From assembly GCA_902763865.1 (NCBI GenBank), contig CACWTR010000009.1:39244-103243 (forward strand): 64,000 nucleotides of DNA. Reading direction: 5' to 3'. The position numbers were made by a program, and so were the translations under genes. The stretch comes from an uncultured Bacteroidales bacterium. Lineage in GTDB: Bacteria > Bacteroidota > Bacteroidia > Bacteroidales > Bacteroidaceae. Every line of letters begins with the position of its first letter. Positions within the stretch are counted from its first letter, which is position 1. Of the stretch, positions 5,427 through 10,663 are shown in pieces. The notes below the pieces were generated by a model, which was not told the origin of the DNA, made no database searches, and saw only the letters and a list, made by a program, of their open reading frames with translations.

Positions 5427-6200
5427 TCACCTGATGTTGGCGCGGATTTTAGCGAGGTATGCTCCCAGGGCTTCTTCGTCGTGATTGTCGATAATCTGAA
5501 TCAAGTCCTTCAGTTCGGAGCGTATGCCTTCGACGTGTGCCTTGGTGCGCGGGTTGAAGAGTATCTCGCGCAGGAGTGTGTCGTCCTCGCCCAGGACGCC
5601 GCGTGCTATCTTCAGGTGCCGCTTGAATGTCGTGCCCGGAGCATCCTGATGCTTCATGACGGCTGAGAAGACGAAGGTGCTGACGAAGGGCACCGACAGG
5701 CTGTAGGCCATTGCTTCGTCGTGCTCGTCGAAGCTGTATTCGTGGACGTTCAGCCCGAGTCTGCGGTAGAGGTCGAGGAAGAAGATGCGTCCCATGTAGT
5801 CGCCCTCGTTGATGACGATGGCGTTCTCCGAGGAGAGCGCTCCGAGGTTGGCAAAGGTGGGGCCGAACATCGGGTGGGTCGAGACGTAGCGTCGGCCTGT
5901 TTCCTCGTAGAAGTCCTTCAGCCCTGTCTTGACCGATGCGATGTCCGAGATGATGCAGTCGTCGGGCAGGCAGGGGATGACTTGGCGGAAGACATCGGTG
6001 GTGTATTTCAGCGTAACGGCATTGATGACGAGTTCGGGGCGGAAGTCGCGAACCTCGTCGAGCGACGTGAAGCGCTGCGTGTTGTAGAGGAAGCGCATCC
6101 GCCGTGCGTCGATTTCATAGACGGCGCATTCGTGGTCGAAGGAGAGCACGTCGGTGAAGAACGAGCCCATCTTGCCTGCGCCAAGGATAAGTATTCTCAT
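5427..6200 (-). CDS. tyrA: Prephenate dehydrogenase
   Basis: 257 residues. The Rossmann motif 'MRILILGAGKMGSFFTDVL' binds NAD(P). 'SDIASVKTGLKDF' and 'YVSTHPMFGPTFANL' are the conserved TyrA signatures around the catalytic His (THPMFGP). It oxidatively decarboxylates prephenate to 4-hydroxyphenylpyruvate, the last committed step to tyrosine. There is no fused chorismate mutase or ACT domain; the mutase is carried by the upstream gene at 6355-7419. It is the last gene of the Phe/Tyr operon. The repeat tract at 6201-6349 runs directly up to its ATG. Confidence 0.93.
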   Translation of the reverse strand: MRILILGAGKMGSFFTDVLSFDHECAVYEIDARRMRFLYNTQRFTSLDEVRDFRPELVINAVTLKYTTDVFRQVIPCLPDDCIISDIASVKTGLKDFYEETGRRYVSTHPMFGPTFANLGALSSENAIVINEGDYMGRIFFLDLYRRLGLNVHEYSFDEHDEAMAYSLSVPFVSTFVFSAVMKHQDAPGTTFKRHLKIARGVLGEDDTLLREILFNPRTKAHVEGIRSELKDLIQIIDNHDEEALGAYLAKIRANIR

Positions 6201-6354: not shown

Positions 6355-7419
6355 TTACTTGTTGATTATCTCCATTTGTTGGCGGACGCTTTCTTCGTGG
6401 ATGTGCTCGAAGATGTTCTTGATGCACTGCGTGTCGATGCCGAGCAGGGAGCCTTGTGCGCCGCGCTTGTCGAGGATTTCGCTGTAGCGACGTGTCTGCA
6501 CGATGGTCATGCCGCTTTCCTTCTTGTACTCGCCGATGCTGCGGCAGACCTTCATGCGCTTGGCCAGCAGGTCGATGAGTTCGTTGTCGAGCTCGTCAAT
6601 CTCCTGACGGAGGTCCTTGAGGCGGTCCGTGTGCTCCGATGTGTCGCGGAAGATGAGGCGCGAGACGATGAAGTCGAGCACTTCGGGCGTCACCTGCTGC
6701 GACGCGTCGCTCCATGCTTTGTCGGGGTCGCAGTGGCTTTCCACGATGAGTCCGTCAAAGCCAAGGTCCATAGCCTGCTGGCAGAGGGAGGCAATCAGGT
6801 CGCGGCGTCCGCTGATGTGGCTGGGGTCGCACACGATGGGGAGTTCCGGCAGCCGCCGCTTCAGTTCGATGGGTATCTGCCACATGGGTTCGTTGCGGTA
6901 GAGTTTCTTTTCGTAGCTGCTGAAGCCACGGTGGATGGCTCCCATCTTCTGTATGCCGGCGCCGTTGATGCGTTCCAGTGCGCCTATCCACAGTTCGATG
7001 TCGGGGTTGACGGGGTTCTTGACGAGCACGGTGGCGTCGGTGCCTTTCAGGGCGTCGGCCAGTTCCTGAACGGCAAAGGGGTTGGCCGTGGTGCGTGCGC
7101 CGACCCATAGGATGTCGATGCCGTACTTCAAGGCCAGCTCCACGTGCTTGGGCGTTGCCACTTCTGTGGCGACGAGCATGCCGGTTTCCTTCTTGACTTT
7201 TGCCATCCAGGGCAGTGCGGGTTCGCCGTGTCCCTCGAATCCTCCGGGCTTGGTGCGCGGCTTCCATACTCCTGCGCGGAAGATGTGGCAGCCTTTTCCG
7301 GCCAGCTGCTTGGCTGTTGTCATCACTTGTTCTTCTGTCTCAGCGCTGCACGGGCCGGCGATGATGAAGGCACGTTCCTGGTCGCTTGGCAGGTTCAGGG
7401 GTTGTAATTGAAGTTCCAT
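6355..7419 (-). CDS. Bifunctional DAHP synthase / chorismate mutase
   Basis: 354 residues. Residues 1 to about 260 are a type I-beta DAHP synthase: 'AFIIAGPCSAETEEQVM', 'FRAGVWKPRTKPGGFEGHG', 'ILWVGARTTANPFAVQELA', 'PIVCDPSHISGRRDLI'. It condenses phosphoenolpyruvate with erythrose 4-phosphate. Residues about 265 to 354 are an AroQ-type chorismate mutase: 'LKDLRQEIDELDNELIDLLAKRMKVCRSIGEYKKESG'. One polypeptide therefore runs the first shikimate step and the branch to prephenate, which feeds its operon partners pheA and tyrA. Such fusions are usual in Bacteroidetes and often allow feedback control through the mutase domain. Confidence 0.94.
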   Translation of the reverse strand: MELQLQPLNLPSDQERAFIIAGPCSAETEEQVMTTAKQLAGKGCHIFRAGVWKPRTKPGGFEGHGEPALPWMAKVKKETGMLVATEVATPKHVELALKYGIDILWVGARTTANPFAVQELADALKGTDATVLVKNPVNPDIELWIGALERINGAGIQKMGAIHRGFSSYEKKLYRNEPMWQIPIELKRRLPELPIVCDPSHISGRRDLIASLCQQAMDLGFDGLIVESHCDPDKAWSDASQQVTPEVLDFIVSRLIFRDTSEHTDRLKDLRQEIDELDNELIDLLAKRMKVCRSIGEYKKESGMTIVQTRRYSEILDKRGAQGSLLGIDTQCIKNIFEHIHEESVRQQMEIINK

Positions 7420-7436: not shown

Positions 7437-7523
7437 TTGGTTCGTTATCTTATTCTTCGTTATAACGTTATATCGTTATTACGTTATCACGACAAATCCT
7501 TAAATCCTCAAATCCTTAAATCC
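7437..7523. repeat. CGTTAT and AAATCCTT short tandem repeats
   Basis: Next to the aminotransferase stop codon lie iterated CGTTAT/ACGTTAT units (7441-7490), then AAATCCTT/AAATCCTC units (7495-7523) that extend into the last codons of the aminotransferase. Confidence 0.55.
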
Positions 7524-8699
7524 CCTTATTCTTCGGAGTGCTTCGGCGAACTTGTCGTCCTTCTGGCAGAGGCTGATGCGTATGTAGCGGTTGCCGCCGG
7601 TGCCGAAGATGAAGCCTGGGGTGATGAAGACGCGGGCTTCGTGGAGGACGCGCTCGGTGAGCTCTTCTACATTATTATATATGTCGGGTATGCGGCCCCA
7701 GAGGAACATGCCTGTCTGCTCGGGGTCGTAGTGGCAGCCGAGCACTTGCATGATTTCCTCGGCGTAGCGGCGCCGGCGGGCGTAGGTCTCGATGTTGGAC
7801 TGGCGGTGCCAGAGGTCGGTGTTGTCGTAGGCCGTTGCCGCTGCGAGCTGCAGGGCGCGGAAGGTGCCGCTGTCGATGTTCGACTTTACCTTCAGTATCC
7901 ACTGCACGAACTGCGGGTTGGTGGCAAGCATGCCTACGCGCCAGCCGGGCATGTTGTGGCTCTTCGACATGGAGTTGAACTCGATGCAGCACTCCTTGGC
8001 CCGCGGCACTTGCAGGATGGAGAGGCGTTCCCCCTCGTTGAGGATGAAGCTGTAGGGGTTGTCGTTGACCACGACGATGCCGTGCCTGAGGGCGAAATCC
8101 ACGAGTTGCTCGTAGGTCTCGCGCCGTGCCTTTGCGCCGGTGGGCATGTTGGGATAGTTGGTCCAGAGGAGCTTGACGCGGCTCAGGTCCATCCGTTCCA
8201 GTGCGTCGAAGTCGGGCTGCCACTGGTTCTGGGGCAGCAGGTCGTAGTTCACCACCTTTGCGCCGAGCAGTTTGGAGAGGCTGGTGTAGGTGGGGTAGCC
8301 CGGGTTGGGCACGAGCACTTCGTCGCCCGGGTTGACGAAGGCGAGGGTGACGTGCAGGATGCCTTCCTTGCTTCCGATGAGGGGCTGTATCTCGCTCCCC
8401 GGGTCGAGTTCTACGCCGTACCACCTGCGGTAGAAGCCGGCCATGGCCTGCCGCAGCTCGGGGATGCCTACGGTGGGCTGATAGCCGTGGGCCGTAGGCT
8501 TGCGTGCTTCCTGGCAGAGCGTCTCGATGGTTTCGGGCGATGGGGGCATGTCGGGGCTGCCGATGGCGAGGCTGATGACGTCCATGCCCTTGGCGTTCAT
8601 GGCTGCAACTTCCTTGAGCTTGCGGCTGAAATAATACTCGCTGACTTCGGCAAGCCTGTCTGCCGGAGCGATGCTAAATGCTTTGTTTTCCGCTTTCAT
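7500..8699 (-). CDS. PLP-dependent aminotransferase (Phe/Tyr operon)
   Basis: 399 residues from the Met at 8699; a Met three codons upstream is also possible. Fold-type I class I/II aminotransferase: 'PTVGIPELRQAMAGFYRRW', 'NPGYPTYTSL', 'WTNYPNMPTGAKA' and PLP-binding lysine motif 'FNSMSKSHNMPGWRVGML'. Both ends of the reaction fit its operon: it most likely transaminates phenylpyruvate and 4-hydroxyphenylpyruvate to Phe and Tyr, although the family also contains LL-diaminopimelate and alanine aminotransferases. Its start overlaps the end of pheA by 26 bp, suggesting translational coupling. Confidence 0.9.
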   Translation of the reverse strand: MKAENKAFSIAPADRLAEVSEYYFSRKLKEVAAMNAKGMDVISLAIGSPDMPPSPETIETLCQEARKPTAHGYQPTVGIPELRQAMAGFYRRWYGVELDPGSEIQPLIGSKEGILHVTLAFVNPGDEVLVPNPGYPTYTSLSKLLGAKVVNYDLLPQNQWQPDFDALERMDLSRVKLLWTNYPNMPTGAKARRETYEQLVDFALRHGIVVVNDNPYSFILNEGERLSILQVPRAKECCIEFNSMSKSHNMPGWRVGMLATNPQFVQWILKVKSNIDSGTFRALQLAAATAYDNTDLWHRQSNIETYARRRRYAEEIMQVLGCHYDPEQTGMFLWGRIPDIYNNVEELTERVLHEARVFITPGFIFGTGGNRYIRISLCQKDDKFAEALRRIRGFKDLRI

Positions 8700-9516
8700 A
8701 GACACCAAGTTGTTTGAGTTCCCGCGTCAGAGGCGTGATGGCACCGAGTGCCTGATGGTAGCGCCTCTCGTCGTTGAAGGAAAGGTCGATGTAGAACATG
8801 TATTGCCACTCCTGTCCGATGATGGGCAGTGACTGTATTTTTGTGAGGTTGAGCTTGTAGAAGGAGAGCACGGAGAGGATGGCGCTGAGGCTGCCTTCCT
8901 CGTGTGGGAGGGTGAAGACGAGGCTGGCCTTGTCGATGTGTCGGGTGCTGCGGACGGCGGTTGCCGCCTCGGGCTGTGCCAGCACGAGGAAGCGCGTGAA
9001 GTTGTGCTTGTTCGTCTCGATGCCTTCTTGCAGTATCTTCATGCCGTAGATGTCGGCAGCGTCGCGATGGCAGATGGCGGCGTGTCCGTGCCGTCGCTCG
9101 CGGCTGATGTCGGCGGCGGCACCTGCCGTGTCGGACACCTCCACCACCTTCAGCCCCGGGTGCTGCGAGAGGAACTTGCGGCACTGCATCAGTGCGACGG
9201 GGTGGGAGTTGACCTCGCGGATGTCGTCCCAGCTCTCGCCGGGCAGACACATGATGCTGTGGCTGATGCGCAGCTTGTGTTCGCCTACGATGGTCATGCC
9301 GCTGTCGCGCAGCAGCTCGTAGTTGTGGAGCAGGCTGCCGGCTATGGTGTTCTCGATGGCCATGAGCCCCAGCATGTCGGGTCTCCCCTTGAGGCGGGCA
9401 AACATCTCTTCGAAGGTGTCGCAGCACTCCAGCTCCACCTCCTCGCCCTCGAAGAAGCGATGTGCGGCAATGTCGTGGAAACTGCCTTCGATGCCCTGTA
9501 TTGCTATCCTTTTCAT
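8674..9516 (-). CDS. pheA: Prephenate dehydratase
   Basis: 280 residues. The catalytic domain (1 to about 185) begins 'MKRIAIQGIEGSFHDIAAHRFF' and contains the essential Thr-Arg-Phe in 'HNFTRFLVL'. A C-terminal ACT domain ('SLVFTLPHEEGSLSAILSVL') is the usual Phe-sensing module. The E. coli ESRP signature reads QSLP here, so the Arg is absent. It converts prephenate to phenylpyruvate. It is the first structural gene of the operon and its ATG lies only 10 nt after the T-run of the leader terminator, so expression depends on read-through of the attenuator at 9527-9677. Confidence 0.95.
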   Translation of the reverse strand: MKRIAIQGIEGSFHDIAAHRFFEGEEVELECCDTFEEMFARLKGRPDMLGLMAIENTIAGSLLHNYELLRDSGMTIVGEHKLRISHSIMCLPGESWDDIREVNSHPVALMQCRKFLSQHPGLKVVEVSDTAGAAADISRERRHGHAAICHRDAADIYGMKILQEGIETNKHNFTRFLVLAQPEAATAVRSTRHIDKASLVFTLPHEEGSLSAILSVLSFYKLNLTKIQSLPIIGQEWQYMFYIDLSFNDERRYHQALGAITPLTRELKQLGVYESGKQSI

Positions 9517-9526
9517 CTTTCAGTGC

Positions 9527-9620
9527 AAAAAAAATCCCGCTTCACTGTTGTGAGCGGGATGTGTTTCTATATCTGTTCTCTCTTATACCTTATTATATAT
9601 ATACGCCGACCCGCTTCACT
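9527..9620 (-). promoter_or_regulatory. Phe/Tyr operon transcription attenuator (terminator plus antiterminator strand)
   Basis: Read on the minus strand. Immediately after the leader-peptide stop codon comes strand 2, AGTGAAGCGGG (9620-9610). Strand 3 is CCCGCTCAC (9558-9550) and strand 4 GTGAAGCGGGAT (9545-9534), followed by eight T (9534-9527). Strands 3 and 4 form an intrinsic terminator with an 11-bp stem and one bulged A. Strand 2 is a near-copy of strand 4, so it can pair with strand 3 instead. A ribosome at the leader stop codon would cover strand 2 and allow termination; a ribosome stalled on Phe/Tyr codons would leave strand 2 free and prevent it. Confidence 0.88.
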
Positions 9621-9677
9621 TCATTTGCTAAAGTAAAAGTAATAGTAAAAGTCGAAGAAGTTGCTGTGATATGTCAT
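9621..9677 (-). CDS. Phe/Tyr-rich leader peptide
   Basis: An 18-codon frame, MTYHSNFFDFYYYFYFSK, then TGA. It contains five Phe and five Tyr, eight of the ten clustered within residues 7-16. It starts about 15 nt after the predicted transcription start and ends directly before the antiterminator strand. This is the classical arrangement of a ribosome-mediated attenuator; the operon it precedes makes exactly these two amino acids. No Shine-Dalgarno is visible, as usual for this phylum. Confidence 0.9.
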   Translation of the reverse strand: MTYHSNFFDFYYYFYFSK

Positions 9678-9698
9678 GCGTACTTTGTTTTTACGGTG

Positions 9699-9729
9699 CA
9701 AAGGTATGACAATTCCTGCATTTTGCCAA
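9699..9729 (-). promoter_or_regulatory. Promoter of the pheA operon
   Basis: TACCTTTG (9706-9699) with TTGG (9729-9726), 19 bp apart, matching the Bacteroidetes -7/-33 consensus. Predicted transcription start is near 9692, just before the leader peptide. Confidence 0.8.
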
Positions 9730-9818
9730 GAAAACCCCCGATTTTTTTGCAAAAAGTTTTCAAGTTGTCTTTCCGGAGAGCAGGGAGTAAAGTTCCGGCG
9801 GACGCACGGGGAAGTTCT

Positions 9819-9945
9819 CCGCGACGCGAGGAAAAAACTATTTTCATGACGTGAAAATCAATTTTCAAATCATGAAAATCAATTTTCAAAGCGTGAAAAT
9901 TAATTTTCACGTCATGAAAATAACTTTTCGACGCGTTCTCCGGGG
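9819..9945. repeat. 21-bp tandem palindrome array, copy 1
   Basis: Four contiguous 21-bp units start at 9852, 9873, 9894 and 9915, preceded by a half unit at 9838. Each has the form TGAAAATNAATTTTCA followed by five variable bases. The core GAAAATNAATTTTC is palindromic. The fourth unit decays to GAAAATAACTTTTC and runs into CGACGCG; the left flank is GCGACGCGAGG. It sits between the divergent pheA-operon promoter and the gene at 10130. Confidence 0.85.
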
Positions 9946-10129: not shown

Positions 10130-10663
10130 ATGAATCTTTATATCAGATATTTCGACGACGAGACGCTCGTGCACAACGTGGCAGAGGCACTGAATTTCCT
10201 GTCTTCCCTCGACGACGTGGAAGTCGATGGTGAGATGGCTGCAGAACTGGAGAAATTCATGAGCAGCAGCGCCATGTACCCCAAGCACATCAAGGTGCGG
10301 GCCCGCTCCTTCTTTATCGCCATCAAGACGACAGCCGCCACGATGGAGGAATTCAAGGCAAAGGGTGCAGGACAGGGCAAGGCGGAGAAGAACGCGCAGA
10401 AGGAAGCCTTGGCGCAGTACGGCAAGCCGCAGTCCGGATGGTATCAGGCCAAGATACTCTTCAAGCGCGTCATCCTCATGCCCGACACGCAGAAGTCGCA
10501 TTACGTGGATACTCCCTTTGTCTGCAAAGTCAAGGCCGGCAGCATCCAGGACTGCTACGACAAGGTCGTCTCGCACCTGCGTAGCCGTCAGGACATCGAC
10601 CCCCGAAGCCAGTTCCCCAGCATCAAGAGCCAGAACTTCGAGTACAGCTTCCTGGGGGAATAA
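10130..10663 (+). CDS. Conserved hypothetical protein
   Basis: 177 residues, soluble, no signal peptide or membrane segment. It begins MNLYIRYFDDETLVHNVAEALNF, contains a low-complexity Ala/Lys/Glu segment ('KAKGAGQGKAEKNAQKEALAQYGKPQ', residues about 79-104), and ends 'SQFPSIKSQNFEYSFLGE'. I recall similar proteins only from Bacteroidales and cannot assign a function. It has its own promoter and is followed after 39 bp by the lysozyme gene, possibly in one transcript interrupted by a GC-rich hairpin at 10675-10692. Confidence 0.8.
   Translation: MNLYIRYFDDETLVHNVAEALNFLSSLDDVEVDGEMAAELEKFMSSSAMYPKHIKVRARSFFIAIKTTAATMEEFKAKGAGQGKAEKNAQKEALAQYGKPQSGWYQAKILFKRVILMPDTQKSHYVDTPFVCKVKAGSIQDCYDKVVSHLRSRQDIDPRSQFPSIKSQNFEYSFLGE

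Follow-up and report, generated by a model that had tools for sequence, protein, structure and literature searches.

A putative leader-peptide attenuator with phenylalanine and tyrosine codons upstream of the pheA operon in Bacteroidales

We propose that the operon for the phenylalanine and tyrosine branches in the 64,000-nucleotide stretch of DNA analysed here (hereafter the window) is controlled by a ribosome-mediated transcription attenuator which, with high probability, senses charged tRNA-Phe and tRNA-Tyr together. Comparison of pheA loci shows, at the level of sequence, a conserved leader, a terminator, complementarity between strands 2 and 3, their spacing and a match between leader codons and operon content. 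From this comparison ribosome-mediated attenuation is very likely, and the operon would very probably be switched on when Phe or Tyr runs short; we infer from it that the leader is translated, that ribosomes stall in it, that the switch operates and that each of the two amino acids evokes a response. The mechanism is classical ribosome-mediated attenuation, and it is the comparative argument that sensor content follows operon content that appears to be new, as far as the literature was searched. Few reports on leader-peptide attenuation in Bacteroidota were found, and the phylum is described in passages of PMC6847099 as starting translation without Shine-Dalgarno sequences. What is described here is a small element for the control of aromatic amino acid synthesis that is found across the class, rumen and gut species among them, and that amounts to a natural experiment: the amino acids sensed appear to change along with gene content. 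It also makes testable the question of whether one leader integrates two tRNA charging signals, where the Corynebacterium case discussed below did not.

Based on Pfam matches, the operon, which lies on the minus strand, runs in the order pheA (prephenate dehydratase, 8674..9516; PF00800, E 3.7e-55), a class I/II aminotransferase (7500..8708; PF00155, E 5.8e-61), a DAHP synthase fused to chorismate mutase (6355..7419; PF00793, E 8.7e-43, and PF01817, E 8.9e-24) and tyrA (prephenate dehydrogenase, 5427..6200; PF02153, E 6.8e-10); NCBIfam scores for these genes were below the cut-offs. Taken from its listed TTG, the aminotransferase frame overlaps the end of pheA by 35 nt (8674-8708), and its true start may be further in. 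Beyond the promoter region, a divergent gene at 10130-10663 on the plus strand has no Pfam or NCBIfam match. Among the nearest named relatives, most are MAGs from rumen or gut that bear the title Bacteroidaceae, Prevotellaceae or Bacteroidales, and the class of the window was therefore taken to be Bacteroidia.

Upstream of pheA, sequence and locus comparison place the leader ORF MTYHSNFFDFYYYFYFSK and its stop codon at 9677-9621 on the minus strand, with the ATG at 9677; it consists of 18 codons, among them 5 Phe and 5 Tyr sensor codons. The box TACCTTTG (9706-9699, minus strand), separated from the leader ATG by 21 nt, was assigned from its sequence and from locus counts as a -7 promoter box of the Bacteroidota type, TAnnTTTG, which we take to be the promoter consensus of this phylum. 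The base at -3 of the leader start is C, not A. Six Phe/Tyr codons in a row were found at just one other place in the window's genome (84% complete), a poly-T tract, and the control search with the pattern reversed gave 14 matches. A consensus scan of 9400-9900 reported no terminator at its settings, so the terminator call rests on sequence and folds; the two promoter-like sites that it did report, at 9840-9889, lie apart from the leader. A/T-rich palindromic repeats of GTGAAAAT/ATTTTCA-like units lie 5' of the promoter box, at 9829-9936, and the weak Rfam matches at about 9820-9940, mostly to microRNA families, were rejected, being below cut-offs and located on this A/T-rich palindromic repeat.

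By sequence and folds, an intrinsic terminator hairpin with T8 occupies 9527..9560 on the minus strand, the hairpin ATCCCGCTCACAACAGTGAAGCGGGAT spanning 9560-9534 and the T8 tract 9534-9527, with 10 nt (9526-9517) between the tract and the pheA ATG at 9516. Its 3' strand (strand 4, AGTGAAGCGGG, 9546-9536) is duplicated as strand 2 (9620-9610), which stands directly 3' of the leader stop, the two 11-nt minus-strand copies being identical at a spacing of 74. Between them, strand 3 (CCCGCTCAC, 9550..9558) can pair with strand 2 as an antiterminator or with strand 4 as the terminator. Strand 1 (UUUUACUUUA, 9629..9638) is made of the last codons, Phe-Tyr-Phe, plus one base, and in the folds its partner is the stop codon with the 5' part of strand 2 (UUUUACUUUA with UGAAGUGAAG). 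The first-pass annotation of this DNA had pointed to an 18-codon frame with 5 Phe and 5 Tyr, to a terminator whose T8 ends 10 nt short of pheA, and to a duplicate of its 3' strand immediately behind the leader stop codon, and each of these was confirmed; strand 1 and the TACCTTTG box were absent from it.

Folding of the 189-nt leader region yielded the combination of 1:2 and 3:4 at -40.2 kcal/mol (z -3.18), a value that 1 of 200 shuffles reached. If strand 1 was masked and strand 4 still missing, 2:3 formed (-15.6 kcal/mol for the stretch), and with strand 2 masked the terminator formed. The terminator has the lower energy as soon as strand 4 exists, even if nothing blocks strand 2, so that antitermination must depend on the order of synthesis, which is a feature of classical attenuators. 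In the proposed mechanism, the transcript would start a short distance 5' of the leader ORF. Shortage of Phe or Tyr would make the ribosome stall in the run of Phe/Tyr codons and mask strand 1; strand 2 would remain free because it begins about 11 nt further on, and could capture strand 3 as the antiterminator before strand 4 is made, in which case no terminator would form and the operon would be read. When Phe and Tyr are both plentiful, the ribosome would reach the stop codon beside strand 2, strand 2 would be covered or re-paired with strand 1, and 3:4 would form, ending transcription before pheA.

The comparison covered pheA loci placed by tblastn. At genus level 55 of 61 genomes had the gene and at family level 127 of 151; the samples for the order and the phylum gave 49 of 118 and 138 of 158, respectively. 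The conservation set was a part of the loci found (276, minus one with 15 nt of upstream sequence), and a leader was defined as an ORF of 8-60 codons within 450 nt of pheA in which at least 6 of 8 consecutive residues are Phe or Tyr; as this criterion scores Phe and Tyr alike, mixed composition is not built in. A leader preceded pheA in 222/275 loci, vs. 9/275 on the reverse strand and 8/1375 Markov shuffles, and thus is not due to chance. It was found in 34/36 loci of the genus, 50/55 of the family, 40/44 of the order and 22/34 of the class, as well as in 72/80 named loci (which overlap with the genus set) and in 4/26 loci from other classes of the phylum. At a threshold of 5 of 8 the count for the class rose to 30/34, with higher chance levels over all groups (43/275 on the reverse strand, 48/1100 shuffles). 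Leaders occurred both with the gene order of the window and with other orders of its class.

Terminators were called in 211 of the 222 loci with a leader vs. 22 of the 53 without, the opposite of the pattern (hairpin kept, leader not) that the first-pass annotation had named as speaking against its reading. A translation-independent switch, such as a riboswitch, T-box or protein-bound RNA accompanied by a fortuitous ORF, would be compatible with the existence of a terminator/antiterminator pair and with the terminators called in those 22 loci, but we find it scarcely credible in view of leader ORF conservation far above chance and of the Rfam results. At gathering score, no cis-regulatory family was found in the window, where only a tRNA reaches the cut-off, and with E values allowed up to 10 the leader region still fitted no RNA family; the best leader-type score was that of Trp_leader (RF00513), at 21.2 bits vs. 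a cut-off of 41, and Thr_leader (RF00506) scored 15.7 bits vs. 55.

Further comparisons were made on a pairing set of 171 non-duplicate loci with an ordered leader and terminator, from which 51 of the 222 were left out as duplicates, for want of a terminator call or as out of order or distance. A TAnnTTTG box lay at most 70 nt 5' of the leader start in 144/171 loci, vs. 11/171 on the reverse strand. This, together with the leader and pairing controls (reverse strand, shuffles and permutation), leaves a vanishingly small probability that the hairpin merely terminates an upstream transcript and that the ORF arose by chance. The leader starts with ATG in 149/171 loci, and AGGA, GGAG or GAGG was found in the 17 nt upstream of it in only 3/171, the other 168 having none of these motifs. 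A stands at -3 in 60% of leader starts and is frequent from -15 to -8 (171 loci). The absence of a Shine-Dalgarno-like motif and the A at -3 are in line with Bacteroidota initiation as presented in passages of PMC6847099.

At least two Phe and at least two Tyr were present in the leader of 168/171 loci, and Phe and Tyr were each found at every one of the last twelve positions of the run, so that what is kept is composition rather than peptide sequence. Such variation in residue order, with Phe/Tyr swaps at run positions, differing N-termini and a composition that follows the operon, argues against a nascent peptide acting in the ribosome tunnel as an arrest peptide that senses a metabolite; we regard this as highly improbable even though the end of the run, UACUUUUACUUUAGC in the consensus, is well kept within the family.

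The stretch after the run paired with the 5' arm of the terminator (2:3) better than 100 base shuffles, at p<=0.05, in 154/171 loci. The mean energy of a locus's own 2:3 pairing was -15.15 vs. -11.54 (sd 0.17) when strand 3 was permuted among loci, with 0 of 2000 permutations as low. The outcome was the same in each of four bands of PheA identity, which control for relatedness only in part, and the 42 most distant loci gave -13.3 vs. -9.08. Strand 2 started 8-14 nt past the last Phe/Tyr codon in 89% of the 171 loci, compared with 64% for permuted arms and 13% for shuffled stretches; judged by the size of the ribosome footprint, the sensor codons are therefore placed such that a stalled ribosome leaves strand 2 free. 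The actual codons paired 1:2 better than the mean of synonymous draws in 124/171 loci, although these rows are not independent.

In 108 aligned rows from the family, standard pairs filled 637/648 cells of the six-pair core for 2:3 and 635/648 for 3:4, and only 171/317 and 124/294 cells, respectively, at the three outer pairs. The first-pass annotation had suggested looking in related upstream regions for leader conservation and for compensatory changes in the strands: the leader is indeed conserved, in the 222 of 275 loci given above, but within the family compensatory changes proved sparse, with two-sided changes in core pairs in 11/648 cells for 2:3 and 3/648 for 3:4. Since the core of the stem is nearly invariant, column covariation within the family is weak, and the pairing argument rests on the permutation test over wider distances. 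In loci with a PheA identity of at least 70%, the usual start of strand 2 is at the stop codon (median -1 nt), where it also starts in the window. At 60-70% identity it is located inside the ORF (medians 24 to 15 nt before the stop), which means that a terminating ribosome would not simply cover it; in these lineages the ribosome would pass over strand 2, and 1:2 would have to re-form behind it. Leader conservation, the terminator and 2:3 pairing together lend support to the attenuator proposed in the first-pass annotation.

Loci in which pheA is separated from the rest of the operon bear on what the leader senses. Removing redundancy from 361 loci left 283, of which 280 extended far enough downstream for classification, either as split-off pheA (no aminotransferase, DAHP synthase or tyrA in the stretch covered; 57 loci) or as operon (at least one of these; 223 loci, among them L039 and L002, in which an aminotransferase gene is present). 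At the 5 of 8 threshold, leaders were detected in 15/57 split-off and 208/223 operon loci. All 15 split-off leaders had at most one Tyr in the run, vs. 1 of the 208 operon leaders, and the median Tyr fraction of the run was 0 and 0.5, respectively, locus counts being inflated by relatedness. The single operon exception, L237, has a second, Tyr-containing leader in tandem. A profile re-check of the 15 split-off loci in every frame, reaching about 1.5 kb past pheA in 11 of them and about 4-5 kb in 4, found none of the aminotransferase, DAHP synthase or tyrA. Pairing of 2:3 was significant in 10 of these 15 loci and not in the other 5. Many of the 42 split-off loci without a leader are outside the class or have a different PheA, and others are inside the class; by eye, L363 shows a Phe-rich, Tyr-free frame just below the threshold. 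On a PheA tree of 117 rows built by a quick method, split-off pheA needs four changes, and the Phe-only leader shares the direction of change in an average of 3.9 out of four independent pairs (sign test, p 0.125), a number of pairs with which the test cannot reach significance.

The fate of tyrA was surveyed in 12 genomes with split-off pheA, namely 11 of the 15 above and G528, whose pheA leader is under the threshold. The gene was found in 11 of the 12, and in 10 of these 11 the tyrA operon, located elsewhere, has its own leader with Phe and Tyr. Such leaders precede the split tyrA operon in eight loci (L369-L372 and L374-L377); in L371, MNNTFGYYAFYYYFFYNN stands before tyrA-DAHP synthase and is followed by its own strand 2 copy and terminator. 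In two genomes of family f26, MIKNISVFAYFYYYFYFSKK and MIKNISVFAYFYYYFYFSNK precede aminotransferase-DAHP synthase-tyrA, and the rule had been set down before those stretches were examined. In the eleventh genome (L373) the contig edge lies about 160 nt upstream of the tyrA frame. Split-off pheA leaders that are poor in Tyr and split tyrA leaders with both residues suggest that leader content follows what the transcript makes. Dual sensing, which the first-pass annotation had deduced from control of both branches, thus gains support from the split loci, in which leader composition appears to follow operon content.

These data also bear on the possibility that the attenuator is real but answers in practice to Phe alone, with UAY codons kept for strand 1 pairing or as neutral neighbours of UUY. 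In its favour, 88% of loci have Phe as the final Phe/Tyr codon of the run, and the AroR leader of Corynebacterium glutamicum aroF, with its Phe-Tyr-Phe motif, responds to Phe and not to Tyr (Neshat et al. 2014, as reported in passages of PMC11802643). AroR resembles the present leader in being an aromatic leader with Phe and Tyr codons that works by attenuation through ribosome stalling; in the same passages it differs in its short motif, its phylum, its operon with DAHP synthase and the lack of effect of Tyr availability. We consider a response to Phe alone unlikely, because split-off pheA leaders keep Phe with little or no Tyr, split tyrA operon leaders contain Tyr, and half of the run is Tyr in the median operon leader.

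Some leaders contain Trp in addition to Phe and Tyr. At 36-50% PheA identity, 25 of 62 distinct operon leaders (e.g. L316, L319 and L308) have it within the run or close by, compared with 7/130 at higher PheA identity and 0/15 split-off pheA leaders; its frequency is 2.6% in the distant operon leaders vs. 0.1-0.7% in nearer groups. Trp in distant leaders would be expected if the DAHP synthase step were also governed by Trp. Taken together with the split loci, this suggests a broader scenario, to which we give slightly less than an even chance, in which the class has one ancestral attenuator and the leader mirrors the amino acids provided by its transcript: Phe and Tyr for the joined operon, Phe alone for split-off pheA, Phe and Tyr for the separated tyrA/DAHP synthase operon, and also Trp in distant lineages. 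Sensor content would then evolve codon by codon with gene order.

Among known systems, the strand architecture of the E. coli pheL-pheA attenuator is alike. Multivalent leaders, in which one leader senses several amino acids made by the operon, are found in the enterobacterial ilvGMEDA and thrABC operons, which concern other amino acids and another phylum, and Bacteroid-trp RNA is located before trp genes. That RNA (RF01692), a predicted cis-regulatory RNA in Bacteroidetes in Table 1 of PMC2864571, has no match in the window. The E. coli system further shares with ours a leader peptide before pheA and control by charged tRNA-Phe, as outlined in passages of PMC11802643. It is a Phe leader, whereas here Tyr makes up half of the leader, a monofunctional pheA stands first in an operon that includes tyrA, and no Shine-Dalgarno-like motif is present. 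In B. thetaiotaomicron, a putative attenuator was listed in 2005 for pheA > hisHb > aroAIb-aroQ > tyrA (PMC1173090, Table 7), an operon with the same gene order and phylum as that of the window; the entry comes from a database of predicted attenuators, and as the word 'leader' is missing from the main text, neither a leader peptide nor a sensed residue is named there. For the same species, 5' UTRs with small ORFs 'reminiscent of leader peptides' are mentioned in PMC7366714, the main text of which does not contain 'pheA'. In Flavobacterium psychrophilum, a structured 5' element before pheA was derived from the transcriptome and also occurs in other Flavobacteriaceae genera (PMC9723704); passages of that paper give clues for leader-peptide attenuation before amino acid operons and name no Phe/Tyr leader. 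In the passages of open-licence papers that were searched, we found no description of a Phe/Tyr leader in Bacteroidota.

Among close relatives, L002, L120 and L122 are without the leader. In these three and in L117, which have 91-93% PheA identity, pheA stands directly behind another coding frame and no leader is present. Seven loci at 72-76% PheA identity (L019, L159, L164, L179, L180, L187 and L189) have no attenuator; in the last 105 nt before pheA they carry a TAnnTTTG-type box that ends 8-9 nt before the ATG and, 5' of this box, the same inverted repeat, CTACC...GGTAGAAA, its halves separated by about 30 nt. In the scan of upstream regions these seven loci were the only matches (the sequences of L019 and L159 being the same), and the window had none; the repeat is perhaps a repressor site that replaced attenuation. 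Tandem Phe/Tyr-rich leaders stand before pheA in L060, L065, L066, L230, L234, L237, L242, L243 and L249, as well as in L366 and L367, and before the split tyrA operons of L369, L370 and L374. Finally, pheA leaders were observed in four genomes outside the class of the window (L088, L091, L098 and L116), with PheA 40-45% identical, and these operons were possibly transferred.
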